A stretch of 64,000 bases of DNA from Actinospica robiniae DSM 44927. GTDB taxonomy: Bacteria; Actinomycetota; Actinomycetes; Streptomycetales; Catenulisporaceae. The translations under genes were made by a program, and so were the position numbers. Of the stretch, positions 5,687 to 12,628 are shown piece by piece. Location: positions 4,027,372 through 4,091,371 of the forward strand of contig NZ_KI632511.1 in assembly GCF_000504285.1 (NCBI RefSeq). The letters are read 5' to 3'. Position 1 is the first letter of the stretch. Every line of letters starts with the position of its first letter. Under the pieces are notes generated by a model that ran no database searches, was not told the origin of the DNA, and worked only from the letters and a program-made list of their open reading frames with translations.

Positions 5687-5703
5687 CACCTGCTGCTTCT
5701 CCG

Positions 5704-5777
<74 letters not shown>

Positions 5778-5857: not shown

Positions 5858-6901
5858 CTAGACGACGAGGCGGAGGGTCTGGGCGGCGGGGGTGATGGTG
5901 ACGGTCTGGCCCCAGCTCAGGGTGAGGCGGTCGGCTTCGATGCCGTCGCCGAAGACGACGAGGTCCTCGCTCTGGACGAGGACGCGGAGGGCTTGGGCGG
6001 GCTCGATGAGGCCTTCGGTGAGGTCGGCGCCGGTGGCGGGTGAGGGCCAGGCTTCGCGGACGAACCAGCCGAGGCGGCGCTCGGTGGGGGCGGGGAGCGT
6101 CAGGGCGCTGTGGCGCTCGCGGGCGGCGGAGCGGAGCCAGCCGGTGGCGCCGGTGCCGGTGCCGGCGAGCAGGCCGGAGGACGACTGCTGCTCGCTGCGG
6201 CCGTCGGGGAGGGTCAGCACGTAGCGGGCGGACTGGTGGGTGGGGCTGCCGAGGTACACCTCGTTGAGGGCATGGAGGGTGAGGAGGGAACCATCTTGAA
6301 CGGGAGGTGCGGGTGGGGAGGGAGGGGAGAGAAGGGCGGCGGAGGAGCCGCCGTCGGCAGAAGCGGACGTGCCGTAGCCGGGGCCGCCTCCGCCTGAGTA
6401 AGCAGCCGTCTGCGCGGCCGCGGCCTGGGGGGCGGTGGAACTGACGGCGGCGGCGACCATCGTGCGCTCCTCGATCTCCGCCCGGCCCTCGGCGGCTTCG
6501 GCGATCAGCGCGGCGCAGTGGTCGGGGCGGTGGCGGGTGAGGACGCCGAGACCGGTGCCGGGACTGGGGTCGATGCCGATGACGGGCTGGCCGCTGAGGT
6601 ATTTGGCCACGTTCGCGGCGAGGCCGTCTTGGCCGACGACCACGACGATGTCCTCCGGCTCGAACAGGAAGCGGTCCAGGTCCTCCCGCTCGACCGCGCC
6701 GCGGCGCCAGGTGCCGGGGACTGCGGACGAGACCGTCTGGAGGGCGCGGTCGGTGGCCGAGTGCCGCTCCTCCACCGCGGACAGCGACAGGCTCGCGGCT
6801 TTGGCCTGGAACTTCGCCTGGCCCCAGGTGCCGCGCTCGCGGACGATCTGCTCGCGCTCAGTACGGCGGTGGACCACGACGACCCGGGGGACGAGGCTCA
6901 T
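5858..6901 (-). CDS. NAD-kinase-like protein with degenerate GGDGT motif
   Basis: The 347-aa product follows the NAD/NADH kinase fold. Its nucleotide-binding loop reads VVVGQDGLAAN (about residues 88-98) where active enzymes have GGDGT. Later blocks are ALNEVYLG (usual NE motif), a glycine/threonine loop AGTGTGATGW (usually TPTGSTAY) and VVFGDGIEAD near the C-terminus. A low-complexity Ala/Gly/Ser/Pro insert lies at about 150-200. The ATG overlaps the stop of the SPFH gene by 4 bp (ATGA, 6898-6901), so the two are translationally coupled. Whether it still phosphorylates NAD is doubtful given the altered motif. Confidence 0.75.
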   Translation of the reverse strand: MSLVPRVVVVHRRTEREQIVRERGTWGQAKFQAKAASLSLSAVEERHSATDRALQTVSSAVPGTWRRGAVEREDLDRFLFEPEDIVVVVGQDGLAANVAKYLSGQPVIGIDPSPGTGLGVLTRHRPDHCAALIAEAAEGRAEIEERTMVAAAVSSTAPQAAAAQTAAYSGGGGPGYGTSASADGGSSAALLSPPSPPAPPVQDGSLLTLHALNEVYLGSPTHQSARYVLTLPDGRSEQQSSSGLLAGTGTGATGWLRSAARERHSALTLPAPTERRLGWFVREAWPSPATGADLTEGLIEPAQALRVLVQSEDLVVFGDGIEADRLTLSWGQTVTITPAAQTLRLVV

Positions 6902-8073
6902 CGGGCGTCGGCCTGGTCACCGGTGGCGGGGAGGGCAGGGCGGGGGCCGCTGCCGAGCATGCCGCCGAGGACGGTGCTGAGCAGGTCGGGGCTGAGGTTC
7001 ACGCTGCCGATCTGGGGCAGTGCGCCGGCGAGCTCCTGCGCGGCGAGCGCGAGCAGGATCTTCGGGTCCTGACCCTGGTAGACGGTCATCCGCGCGTCCT
7101 GAGCCGCCGCTTCGGACATGCCGAGCTCGCGGACGCGCTCGGCGTCGGCGGCCGCGGCCAGCCGGATCCGCTCGGCGTCGGCCGCGGCGGCGAGGCGGAT
7201 ACGTTCGGCGTCCGCGGCGGCGTTGATCCGGGTGCGCTCGGCTTCGCCCTCCGCGGCGATCCGCGTCCGCTCCGCCTCGGCTTCCGCGGCGATCCGGGAC
7301 CTTTCGGCCTCGCCGACGGCCCGGATGCGCGCCGCCTCGGCCGCTTCCTCCGCCTTCTTGCGCTCGTTCGCGCCCTGCTGCGCCAGCAACTGCTCTTCGC
7401 GGGTGGCGAGCTCGATCCGGTTCTGCAGCTCGTTCTCGGCGATGGCCCGCTCGCGGTTGACGGCTTCGGCACGACGCTCGAAGCCGGCGCGGTCGGCTTG
7501 CTGCTGGATCAGTTCGCGGGCGGGGGCTCGCAGCGCCCGCTCGACTTCGGTCTCGGGGCGGACGGCGACGATGCGGGTGTCGACGATCTCCAGCCCGGTT
7601 TCGGCCAGCCGCTCGTCTCCGGACAGGCCTTCGGCCACCCGGGTGCGTACGGCCGCCGGGCCCTCGGCGAGTGCGGCGGCCAGCGGGAGGGAGGCGAGCA
7701 GCGACAGCGCGTGCTGTTGGGCGAGCTCGGTCAGCAGGCCGGCGACCTGGTCGAGCGGGGTGCCTTGGGCTGCTCCGGTGGCCGTGTCGATGCCGAAGTC
7801 GAGGCGGCGCGCGGCCTTGAGCGGGTCGGCGAAGCGGTAGGTGACCGAGCCTTGCACGGCCGCTTCCTGGAAGTCGGCGGTGCGGCCGCGGAAGACGAGC
7901 GGCAGCTCGCGGTCGTCGACGGGCACTTCGGACAGCACGGTGCCGAGCGGCCGGAACCAGAAGGACTGGCCGACGCCCTGGTGCGCGACGTCGCCGCGGC
8001 GCAGGTGTACGACGTGGCCGGTGCCGGTGCCGCGATAGTGGCTGACGAACGGCCGCTTGGTGATGTGTGCCAT
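6898..8073 (-). CDS. SPFH/Band 7 (prohibitin-flotillin) family protein
   Basis: This is a membrane-scaffold-type protein of about 391 aa. The SPFH domain occupies about residues 1-200 (FVSHYRGTGTGHVVHLRRGD at the start). It is followed by a long Ala/Glu/Arg coiled coil with repeated 11-residue units such as AERIRLAAAAD (about 230-330), then a hydrophobic C-terminal segment. ATG 8073 is preferred over GTG 8082 because AGGGG sits 8 nt before the ATG on the minus strand. It forms a two-gene operon with the NAD-kinase-like gene. No N-terminal transmembrane helix is evident, so membrane association would be peripheral or through acylation. Confidence 0.85.
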   Translation of the reverse strand: MAHITKRPFVSHYRGTGTGHVVHLRRGDVAHQGVGQSFWFRPLGTVLSEVPVDDRELPLVFRGRTADFQEAAVQGSVTYRFADPLKAARRLDFGIDTATGAAQGTPLDQVAGLLTELAQQHALSLLASLPLAAALAEGPAAVRTRVAEGLSGDERLAETGLEIVDTRIVAVRPETEVERALRAPARELIQQQADRAGFERRAEAVNRERAIAENELQNRIELATREEQLLAQQGANERKKAEEAAEAARIRAVGEAERSRIAAEAEAERTRIAAEGEAERTRINAAADAERIRLAAAADAERIRLAAAADAERVRELGMSEAAAQDARMTVYQGQDPKILLALAAQELAGALPQIGSVNLSPDLLSTVLGGMLGSGPRPALPATGDQADAR

Positions 8074-8210
8074 GTATTCCACCCCTGCTTCCTACGGTAT
8101 GAGGGCCCTGCCTCCCCGGTGCCCGCCGCAGACGATACGCCGCCCACGGCATTATCGTCAAGATGACGAAAAGGGGGACGTCGCGACGCCATGGACACCA
8201 TCGAACTCTC

Positions 8211-8223
8211 TAGACTCGAGGTA
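8211..8223 (+). promoter_or_regulatory. Leaderless-type -10 (TAGACT) for the KAS III gene
   Basis: TAGACT (8211-8216) is followed by 6 nt and then the ATG at 8223. No ribosome site fits, so transcription probably starts at the ATG. A clear -35 is not visible. Confidence 0.5.
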
Positions 8224-9164
8224 TGACCGCATCCCGGATCGCCGCCGTCGGGCACTACCAGCCTGCGGAGACGCTGACCAACGCCGACCTCGAGCAGCTC
8301 GTCGACACCAACGACGAGTGGATCCGCACCCGCGTCGGCATCGTGGAACGCCGTATCGCGCGCACCGAGTCTGTGGCCGATCTCGCCGTGCAGGCGAGTG
8401 CCAAGGCCTTGGCGAGCTCGGGACGAGCGGCGAACGAGATCGACATGGTGGTGGTCGCGACGACTACCGCGATCGACCGCTGCCCGAACACGGCGGCGCG
8501 GGTGGCCGCTGCGCTCGGGCTCGGTAGTCCGGCGGTGCTGGACGTCAACACCGCTTGCTCCGGCTATAGCCACGCGCTGGCAGTGGCCGACCACGCCGTG
8601 CGGGCCGGCGCCGCTCGAGCCGCCCTGGTGGTGGCCTCGGAGAAGATGTCGGACGTGACGGACTGGACCGATCGGAGCACCTGCATCCTGATCGGCGACG
8701 GCGCGGGCGCTGCGGTCATCGAGGCCTGTGACGACGCGGAGTGGGGCGTGGGTCCGGTGTTCTGGGGGTCGGCGCCGGACAAGTCGCGGATGGTGCTGAT
8801 CGAGGGCGACGTACCGCGGTTCAGCCAGGAGGGGCAGGCGGTCTACCGCTGGGTCACCGGCGAGGTGGCGGCTCTGGCACGCCGGGCCTGCGACGCGGCG
8901 GGTGTGACGCCGGATCAGCTCGCCGGGTTCGTGCCGCACCAGGCGAACCTGCGCATGATCGAGCCGTTGGCCCGGCAGCTCGGTCTGGCAGGCAAGGTGA
9001 TCGCGCGCGACGTCGTGAACTCGGGCAACACGTCGGCCGCGAGTGTGGGCATCGCGCTCTCGAAGCTGGTCGAGTCGGGCGAGCTGGTCAGCGGGGATCT
9101 GGCGTTGCTGTTCGGGTTCGGCGGCGGTCTGGCGTACGCGGGACAGGTCGTACGCTGCCCATAG
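8223..9164 (+). CDS. fabH: 3-oxoacyl-ACP synthase III (KAS III, FabH-like)
   Basis: This is a thiolase-fold enzyme that condenses an acyl-CoA starter with malonyl-ACP. All three catalytic residues are visible: Cys in VNTACSGYSHA (about 113), His in FVPHQANLRMI (about 240) and Asn in VNSGNTSAAS (about 270). Length (313 aa) is normal for FabH. It stands alone, with no acyl carrier protein or other fatty-acid genes beside it, so a starter or specialised role is as likely as the main fatty-acid pathway. It diverges from the SPFH gene and is followed by a metallo-hydrolase in the same direction. Confidence 0.88.
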   Translation: MTASRIAAVGHYQPAETLTNADLEQLVDTNDEWIRTRVGIVERRIARTESVADLAVQASAKALASSGRAANEIDMVVVATTTAIDRCPNTAARVAAALGLGSPAVLDVNTACSGYSHALAVADHAVRAGAARAALVVASEKMSDVTDWTDRSTCILIGDGAGAAVIEACDDAEWGVGPVFWGSAPDKSRMVLIEGDVPRFSQEGQAVYRWVTGEVAALARRACDAAGVTPDQLAGFVPHQANLRMIEPLARQLGLAGKVIARDVVNSGNTSAASVGIALSKLVESGELVSGDLALLFGFGGGLAYAGQVVRCP

Positions 9165-10993: not shown

Positions 10994-12628
10994 ATGATGC
11001 GGCGACGCATTCCGGTTCGGCGTCCTGGACGGGGCCAAGGGACTGAAGGGGGATGGATTCGGCGGGAGGGCTCCAGCCACAGTCAGAGTCGTGGGCTGGG
11101 CTGGATACAAATCCGAGGCGGGCGACGGGTAAGGGAACAGGTACGGGGGCAGGACACGGGTCTTGGGCTGGGCCGCCTGGGACGGGGGCGCGAGAGGGGG
11201 CTCAGTCAGGAACTGGGACAGGACACGGGTCTTGGGCTGGGCCGCCTGGGACGGGGGCGCGAGAGGGGGCTCAGTCAGGAACTGGGACGGGAACGGGCAC
11301 GTAGCCAGGGACGGGGACTAGGTCAGGGCAGCGCTCGGCGGCCGGTGGCGGCGGCCGTGGCGATGGGTGCCGCGATGACGCTGGTGGGGTTGGGCCTCTC
11401 GGGGTGCTCGGGGTCAGACCTTCCGGCGGGGACGAGCCTCGTCATGGCGGCGCACGCTGCTTCGATCCCGGTGTCCGACGCTCAGCGGCAGCTGGCGACG
11501 CAGGGGTCTAACGCGTTCGCCGTGTCGCTGCTGCGAGCGCTGGGCACGGGCGACGGCGACCTGACCTTTTCGCCGCAAACGCTCAGCGACCTGCTCGCGC
11601 TGGTCGCGCCGGGTGCGCGTGGGCAGACGGCAGCTCAGCTGCTTTCCGCCTTAGGTTTGAGCACTTCGGGACTGACGGCCGATCAGGTGAGTGCCGCGCT
11701 GGGCGGGGACGACTCCGTGGCCTTGGCCGATGCGAAGCAGGGGTCTATCACGCTGCGCATCTCGAGCGATGTCTGGACGGCTACCACCGTCAAGCCGTCG
11801 CAGAGCTACCTCTCGGCGATCGACGGCGCGTTCGGCTCGGGGCTGCACCAGACCGACTTCGGCAAGGATCCGGACGCGGCTCGCCGGGCCGTCAACCAGC
11901 TCGTGGAACAGGAGACCAACGGCTACATCTCAGACCTCTTCCCGCCGAACAGCATCGATGAGGACACGCGGATGGTGCTGACCGACGCGCTCTACCTCGA
12001 CGCTGCTTGGGCCTCGCCGTTCGACCCTTCGGACACGAACACGTCGGGCACGTTCACTCGCGCGGACGGGTCGACCGAGACCGCGGCGCTTATGGAGCAG
12101 AGCGGATCGTTCGGCTACGCCGCCGGGTCGGGCTGGCAGCTGGCCGAGCTGCCGTACCAGGGCGGCAAGCTCGCCATGGACGTACTGCTCCCCGACTCCG
12201 GTCGCGGCACGCTCGCGAGCTTGCGCGGGCAGCTGACCAGCGCGTCACTGACGTCCATGCTCGGCGGGATCCGGCCGGTGTCGATGCAGCTGACGCTGCC
12301 GCGCTTCACCACGGATTCGAGTCTGGGCTCGCTCAAGCAGGTGCTCGGGCAGCTCGGCGTCAAGGATCTGTTCAACCCGGACGCGGCCGACTTGAGCGGG
12401 ATGACTGCCGATCGGGAGAGCCTCTACGTCTCCGCGGTGGTAGCGAAGGCGCACATCGCGGTGGGTGAACATGGCACGGTCGCGGCGGCTGCCGCGGGCG
12501 GGGCGGCTGGAGCTACGGCGGCGCGGGCGCCCGGGGTGACCTTCACTGTCGACCACCCGTTCCTTTACCTGATCCGTGACCTGACGACCGGGCAGATTCT
12601 GTTCATGGGGCAGGAGAGCTCGATCTGA
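10994..12628 (+). CDS. Serpin (serine protease inhibitor) with lipobox and long basic N-terminal extension
   Basis: The serpin fold runs from about residue 165 to 544, starting at GSNAFAVSLLRALG. Conserved blocks are LTFSPQTLSDLLAL, VLTDALYLDAAWASPF and the C-terminal VTFTVDHPFLYLIRD. The reactive-centre hinge is HGTVAAAAAGGAAGATAARA. Ahead of it a hydrophobic stretch ends in the lipobox LSGC (about residues 134-137), so it should be a surface lipoprotein. ATG 10994 has a strong GGAGGG (10981-10986) 7 nt upstream. That start gives about 115 Arg/Gly-rich residues before the signal-like helix, including a duplicated 23-residue unit. A later GTG at 11345 would make a short signal peptide but lacks basic residues and a ribosome site. 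Confidence 0.8.
   Translation: MMRRRIPVRRPGRGQGTEGGWIRREGSSHSQSRGLGWIQIRGGRRVREQVRGQDTGLGLGRLGRGRERGLSQELGQDTGLGLGRLGRGRERGLSQELGRERARSQGRGLGQGSARRPVAAAVAMGAAMTLVGLGLSGCSGSDLPAGTSLVMAAHAASIPVSDAQRQLATQGSNAFAVSLLRALGTGDGDLTFSPQTLSDLLALVAPGARGQTAAQLLSALGLSTSGLTADQVSAALGGDDSVALADAKQGSITLRISSDVWTATTVKPSQSYLSAIDGAFGSGLHQTDFGKDPDAARRAVNQLVEQETNGYISDLFPPNSIDEDTRMVLTDALYLDAAWASPFDPSDTNTSGTFTRADGSTETAALMEQSGSFGYAAGSGWQLAELPYQGGKLAMDVLLPDSGRGTLASLRGQLTSASLTSMLGGIRPVSMQLTLPRFTTDSSLGSLKQVLGQLGVKDLFNPDAADLSGMTADRESLYVSAVVAKAHIAVGEHGTVAAAAAGGAAGATAARAPGVTFTVDHPFLYLIRDLTTGQILFMGQESSI
11151..11288 (+). repeat. 69-bp tandem duplication inside the serpin N-terminal region
   Basis: Two adjacent, essentially identical 69-bp copies (11151-11219 and 11220-11288) begin AGGACACGGGTCTTGGGCTG. 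The period equals 23 codons, so the serpin frame is kept and the peptide unit GQDTGLGLGRLGRGRERGLS is repeated. The near-identity indicates a recent duplication. Confidence 0.9.

Follow-up and report, generated by a model that had tools for sequence, protein, structure and literature searches.

A conserved gene pair encoding an SPFH protein and an NADK2-related protein with a GQDGL loop, predicted to belong to the NrtR regulon of NAD metabolism

What might an SPFH protein be doing in the company of an NAD-kinase-like (NADK-like) protein in which the motif of the phosphate-binding loop is altered? The question is raised by two adjoining genes in a 64,000-nucleotide stretch (the window) of Actinospica robiniae DSM 44927, whose 9.9 Mb genome is a single contig. 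SPFH proteins are widely distributed and for the most part lack an assigned function, and the GGDG loop is common to nicotinamide adenine dinucleotide (NAD), lipid and sugar kinases. A sequence-only reading of the window had taken the pair for a membrane-scaffold gene coupled by 4 base pairs (bp) to a modified NAD kinase gene, the latter providing a nucleotide-sensing or altered-substrate partner for an SPFH assembly. The analysis presented here indicates that the pair is a widespread family rather than a local oddity, and we favor, with a probability of about 0.55, its explanation as a fixed two-gene NAD-homeostasis unit controlled by NrtR and made of an SPFH ring or cage and an NADK2-related kinase.

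Both genes were located as described (Table 1), and the DNA read at their junction (...CGATGAGC...) places the SPFH stop codon TGA at 6900-6898 and the ATG of the NADK-like gene at 6901-6899, with the four bases ATGA being shared. This overlap is the commonest spacing of the pair, found in 50 of 111 loci (duplicates counted), while the distance lies within -10 to +20 in 102 of them and the two genes share one strand in all 111; the few large negative gaps correspond to wrongly chosen start codons. Among named organisms, Catenulispora and other Catenulisporales have the nearest relatives of the NADK-like gene, and 38 of 60 near genomes contain a homologue. Counts cover the fetched loci and include close relatives. 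An SPFH homologue is present at each of 110 loci (L008-L117), drawn from two overlapping collections and holding 104 distinct sequences, and an SPFH gene lies within the fetched stretch for 143 of 144 distinct family members, the sole exception standing at a contig end. Co-occurrence of the pair, for which the actinomycetes had been singled out, is thus conserved there and far beyond, namely in Actinomycetota, Planctomycetota, Acidobacteriota, Myxococcota and Pseudomonadota. In one locus (L198) the SPFH match (66 bits) is about 0.9 kb off and does not adjoin the NADK-like gene.

Genome surveys with both profiles, counting matches well above ordinary NAD kinases, gave a similar picture. The NADK-like protein was detected in 12 and the SPFH partner type in 13 of 296 Actinomycetota genomes, the corresponding values being 26 and 27 of 199 for Planctomycetota, and the one SPFH gene left without a match in each survey lies at a contig end. 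The family was also detected in 6 Acidobacteriota genomes out of 149 and in 10 Pseudomonadota out of 249, and in each of these 16 cases the fetched DNA contained an SPFH match. Chance adjacency of the two genes is ruled out by locus co-occurrence together with these surveys. In a tree of 61 rows chosen among those fetched, the NADK-like family forms a single branch (support 100/99). No SPFH gene was found for any of 22 relatives outside the family, nor for the 25 outside relatives fetched, whose flanks are short, and the NrtR list does not include any of them. All-against-all comparison of flanking open reading frames (ORFs) returned no other recurrent neighbor, as the clusters comprised no more than 8 loci, most of them closely related.

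To which enzyme does the partner protein relate? Its AlphaFold2 model (predicted local distance difference test, pLDDT, 88; predicted template modelling score, pTM, 0.83) adopts the NAD kinase fold, in agreement with the earlier claim that the rest of this fold is kept. Its best structural match is NADK2 (VIA-align Z 24.8 over 284 residues, root-mean-square deviation 3.0, model residues 3-347), the top 50 VIA-align matches listed being NAD kinases with Z 19.5-24.8, of which one (2an1) is annotated merely as 'putative kinase'; Foldseek agrees, and the family profile compared with solved structures also returned human NADK2 first (9e-19). The likeness to human mitochondrial NADK2 (PDB 7r4j-m, 7n29) spans the whole length of the fold and includes common N-terminal RVVVV..T.YE, ALNEVF.G, SSG and TGTG..W segments. 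On the contrary, NADK2 keeps GGDGT and has a Lys in TGTGSK, whereas the NADK-like family shows GQDGL and is marked by its own C-terminal blocks, WFVREAWPSPATG and FGDGIEAD; moreover, the bacterial GGDGT relatives examined come without an SPFH partner gene. The Pfam NAD_kinase profile (PF01513) scores below its cut-off for the window protein (19.4 versus 25.5 bits), matching 26 of 45 family members at E <= 0.1 (best 4.1e-07). Because the protein falls short both of this cut-off and of the GGDG motif, it is here filed as a member of an NAD-kinase-fold, NADK2-related family rather than as an NAD kinase.

The two active-site loops differ in what they tell. The TPTGST-type loop, proposed to be changed, does read TGTGATGW in the window protein versus TGTGSKAW in human NADK2; nonetheless, since both the family profile and the model place NADK2 nearest, this change is common to the NADK2 branch and not peculiar to the NADK-like protein. 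Replacement of GGDGT by GQDGL at residues 90-94 was confirmed and is family-wide. These residues read G-[QP]-D-G-L in all 104 distinct homologues of the main set, with G90, D92, G93 and L94 invariant and position 91 being Q in 100 and P in four, and GQDGL occurs in 135 of the 144 distinct family members. Sequencing error or local decay as its source is ruled out by this fixation, and on these alignments GQDGL is a fixed signature of the family. Of the 22 relatives outside the family, two have GGDNH and one has GGDGS, and L228 reads GGDGT; the altered loop coincides with presence of the SPFH gene. Working kinases with GGDGT, GGDGS, GGDGM and GGDGN are described (PMC8553519), so that the final Leu of GQDGL is not alarming, the last motif residue varying among active enzymes; judged from the motif, the real oddity is the Gln replacing the second Gly. 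The Asp of the loop is the catalytic base of NAD kinases (PMC8553519), and both Asp92 and the Asn213-Glu214 pair of the NE/D motif are kept in 104 of 104. Trp255 is found in 103 of the 103 alignment rows with a letter there, and Thr253 and the DG of FGDGIE are near-invariant across several phyla. A second subfamily, with GQDG[LVM], ND (VND) and TG[LA]G (TGLG) motifs, has the SPFH gene and keeps the Asp as well.

As for the SPFH protein, it scores above the Band_7 cut-off (43.2 versus 23.6 bits), and its model (pLDDT 85, pTM 0.53) comprises an N-terminal part of SPFH type and, towards the C terminus, a long helix (residues 218-332), with HflK, flotillin and stomatin as best Foldseek matches and vault lower. 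An N-terminal membrane segment is present in most prokaryotic SPFH subfamilies. In the window protein no clear transmembrane segment was detected, the maximal 19-residue hydropathy being 1.43 at residue 124 and the modelled N terminus consisting of strands, not helix, so that the description as a membrane scaffold is not supported. Hydropathy above 1.6 was reached in 5 of 44 homologues; of the four highest segments one has its start at residue 33, the other three starting past residue 100. SPFH8 and 9 have been described as two soluble subfamilies (PMC2636767). The pair resembles SPFH1/2/5 with NfeD (PMC2636767) in having a Band_7-matching SPFH gene in a conserved two-gene operon, but differs in that the partner is an NAD-kinase-fold protein instead of NfeD and in showing no clear N-terminal transmembrane segment; the words 'NAD' and 'kinase' are absent from the main text of that article. 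A known defense system was also considered and rejected, PADLOC yielding just a weak helix-turn-helix match to the SPFH protein.

What controls the pair is suggested by its surroundings. A one-genome-per-species scan retained 80 of 110 NADK-like relatives. Of 80 loci inspected for neighboring genes, 75 have at least 700 bp upstream. NrtR-like ORFs were observed in the flanks of 52 of the 75 (36 divergent, 10 co-directional upstream and 6 elsewhere), usually adjoining the SPFH gene, and 23 had none; L059 and L072, scored as 'downstream -', have long stop-to-stop ORFs overlapping the divergent position. All 10 NrtR-like ORFs tested exceeded the NUDIX and NrtR_WHD cut-offs. The trio of SPFH, NADK-like and NrtR genes was also found in Rhizobium, Methylomonas and Providencia, and annotated plasmid records contain a NUDIX gene beside the pair whose product is above the Pfam cut-offs for NUDIX and the NrtR winged helix and below the NCBIfam equivalog cut-off for NrtR. 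NrtR senses ADP-ribose (PMC9503650, PMC6800001), which in Mycobacterium smegmatis releases the protein from DNA (PMC6800001).

Upstream of the SPFH gene, actinobacterial loci share the palindrome consensus TTATCGTCA-N3-TGACGATAA, often as two copies about 34 bp apart. The window has a single copy, TTATCGTCAAGATGACGAAAA, with one mismatch (0 expected by chance), that overlaps a -35-like TTGACG on the minus strand. Allowing up to four mismatches, 51 of 60 actinobacterial loci have the box, among them 16 of the 22 without NrtR in their flanks, as against 0 of 1390 control stretches. Grouping of loci followed record titles, L106 being titled both ways, while L045, whose title gives Acidobacteria, has the actinobacterial box and groups in the tree with an Acidimicrobiales row. 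Other palindromes were seen in non-actinobacterial loci. A related pattern has seven sites in the window genome, five of them preceding this pair, pncB with a pncA-like gene, nrtR, nadA, and pnuC with a nadR-like gene; the two others correspond to a PhyH-family gene and one weak place, and the pncA-like and nadR-like genes do not reach their NCBIfam equivalog cut-offs. The sister genome (G002) has five box sites, of which four precede the pair, pncB-pncA, nadA and nrtR. One predicted operator is common to NAD genes and nrtR within a genome, as for an NrtR regulon. Because the same box precedes the pair, NAD genes and nrtR in two genomes, the palindrome is very probably an NrtR operator, and considering both this common box and the adjacency of NrtR, the pair looks like a predicted member of the NrtR regulon. 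With the known regulon of NAD biosynthesis and salvage it shares an nrtR gene, adjacent or distant, and the palindrome before nadA, pncB-pncA and pnuC-nadR, whereas the pair itself was not found as a member in the papers searched. Literature searches on SPFH with NAD kinase, NADK2 or NrtR gave no report of it among the papers listed; the founding NrtR paper, which could list the pair, lay outside these searches.

The same box was observed in two genomes of the family to which the window belongs (L266:2932-5504 and L295), between a phoH-like gene and a two-gene set encoding a vWA-like protein, recognized by eye and without Pfam match, and an adenylosuccinate-synthetase-like protein, which suggests another NrtR target.

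How would the two proteins work together? ADP-ribose is a product of NAD breakdown. NrtR would repress the pair at 8152-8172 along with genes for NAD synthesis, salvage and uptake, and upon NAD breakdown the rise in ADP-ribose would make it let go, the NAD genes and the pair then being produced together. The SPFH protein would assemble into a ring or cage, either cytosolic or peripheral, to which the NADK2-related protein, made in matched amounts by virtue of the ATGA overlap, may bind. This latter protein would most likely be a kinase acting on an NAD-type dinucleotide, either NAD(H) or ADP-ribose, at the 2'-OH of the adenosine ribose, with Gln91 and Leu94 altering donor use or kinetics. Since the pair co-occurs across distant bacteria and appears to be switched on with NAD synthesis and recycling genes, it is probably an unstudied part of bacterial NAD management.

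Several observations weigh against this explanation, either in its regulatory or in its catalytic part. The box is lacking in 9 of the 60 actinobacterial loci (6 of the 22 without NrtR in their flanks and 3 of the 38 with it) and in 16 of 17 non-actinobacterial ones, where other NrtR boxes may serve. The window palindrome differs from the M. smegmatis NrtR box, GTTTTCGA-N7-TCGAAAAC (PMC6800001), for which reason we only infer binding of NrtR to it, and it also stands 51 bp upstream of the divergent gene at 8223. The correlation between SPFH and NADK-like proteins (Mantel r 0.73) is also expected from shared ancestry alone. On the catalytic side, a Gly-to-Gln change in the phosphate-binding loop could abolish use of ATP and leave a pseudo-enzyme, a canonical NAD kinase is encoded elsewhere in the window genome, and a planctomycete member (L147:1420-2415) reads GGNGL, with the glycine present, the catalytic Asp lost and the SPFH gene kept.

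In a doubtful, though serious, alternative, corresponding to the nucleotide-sensing version of the earlier proposal, the NADK-like subunit would be a catalytically dead sensor: NAD(P) or ADP-ribose would be bound but not phosphorylated, and the subunit would control assembly of the SPFH ring or binding of a partner. Substitution of the second Gly by Gln or Pro throughout the main set, the separate ordinary NAD kinase and the box common to the pair and NAD genes all suit such a sensor. However, pseudo-enzymes seldom keep catalytic residues, and Asp92, Asn213-Glu214, Thr253 and the DG of FGDGIE are near-invariant over several phyla, with the VND/TGLG subfamily also retaining the Asp; given this conservation an enzyme appears likelier than a dead sensor, and we consider that there are about two chances in three of catalysis of some kind. 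The earlier proposal of a nucleotide-sensing or altered-substrate partner is partly supported: the SPFH-linked loop change agrees with it, and the NrtR adjacency and common box connect the pair with NAD/ADP-ribose signaling. The catalytic residues lean towards an enzyme rather than sensing. If catalysis is accepted, the protein might simply be an extra NAD kinase, using ATP or polyphosphate and induced upon NAD resynthesis, that the SPFH protein merely stores or localizes. The NADK2 fold and loops, the regulon context and the T, S, M or N ending the motif of active kinases (PMC8553519) are in line with it, but no GQDG-type NAD kinase was found in the available text of PMC8553519, and the changed motif goes along with an SPFH partner, which probably denotes selection for something beyond plain NADP supply; this option seems improbable. 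A more elaborate version of the favored NAD-homeostasis unit, and a rather unlikely one, is an NAD-responsive SPFH compartment, free of membrane anchor, housing a kinase that would make or sequester a 2'-phosphorylated derivative of ADP-ribose or NAD, thereby closing a feedback on the ADP-ribose signal of NrtR.

Under the NAD-homeostasis explanation, one SPFH family would be given a testable job by its constant enzyme-like partner and its place in a defined regulon, and if ADP-ribose drives the pair, bacteria would respond to NAD breakdown, which may take place in stress or phage defense, by an SPFH-linked route. The compartment version, if true, would give an SPFH assembly a part in NAD metabolism and extend the NAD kinase superfamily by a new specificity for acceptor or donor. 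The family also constitutes a natural experiment on the GGDG loop, Gln being fixed at a glycine position with the catalytic Asp kept.

Table 1. Features of the gene pair and its upstream region (window coordinates)
Feature	Position	Strand	Details and basis
SPFH/Band_7 gene	6898..8073	minus	391 residues; Band_7 profile, fold model, hydropathy
NAD-kinase-fold gene (NADK-like)	5858..6901	minus	347 residues; NADK2-related, GQDGL at residues 90-94
ATGA overlap, SPFH stop and NADK-like start	6898..6901	minus	DNA read at junction
21-bp palindrome, predicted NrtR operator	8152..8172	.	79-99 bp upstream of SPFH start
GQDGL loop (residues 90-94) in place of GGDGT	6620..6634	minus	sequence and family alignment
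Asn213-Glu214, NE/D motif of NAD kinases	6260..6265	minus	present in 104/104
Region-II loop GTGATGW (residues 249-255), NADK2-like	6137..6157	minus	alignments
About 50 extra Ala/Gly/Ser/Pro-rich residues, within approx. residues 148-207	6281..6460 (approx.)	minus	alignment, model

The extra segment of the NADK-like protein comprises 66 residues versus 16, residues 172-197 having pLDDT below 50, and neither the congener (G002, L009) nor any other of the 44 aligned members has its Ala/Gly/Ser/Pro-rich insert. Regarding mobility, the Providencia homologue had no match in phages, which gives no indication of phage origin, and the Providencia region had no match in E. coli. A family member at L239:5345-6891, preceded by a short ORF that has no Pfam match, adjoins tetR-tet(H) on a mobilizable plasmid of small size, and partial matches were found on Psychrobacter and Actinobacillus plasmids. 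One Thermoanaerobaculia genome (G349) contains two copies of the module (L163 and L093), both flanked by an NrtR-like gene. Within the window, the gene at 8223-9164, on the opposite strand from the pair, is ketoacyl-ACP synthase III-like and may share the operator. Finally, a tRNA-Pro (GGG) at 5703-5777 lies immediately 3' of the pair, and a bacterial serpin gene (PF00079, 288 bits) is found at 10994-12628.
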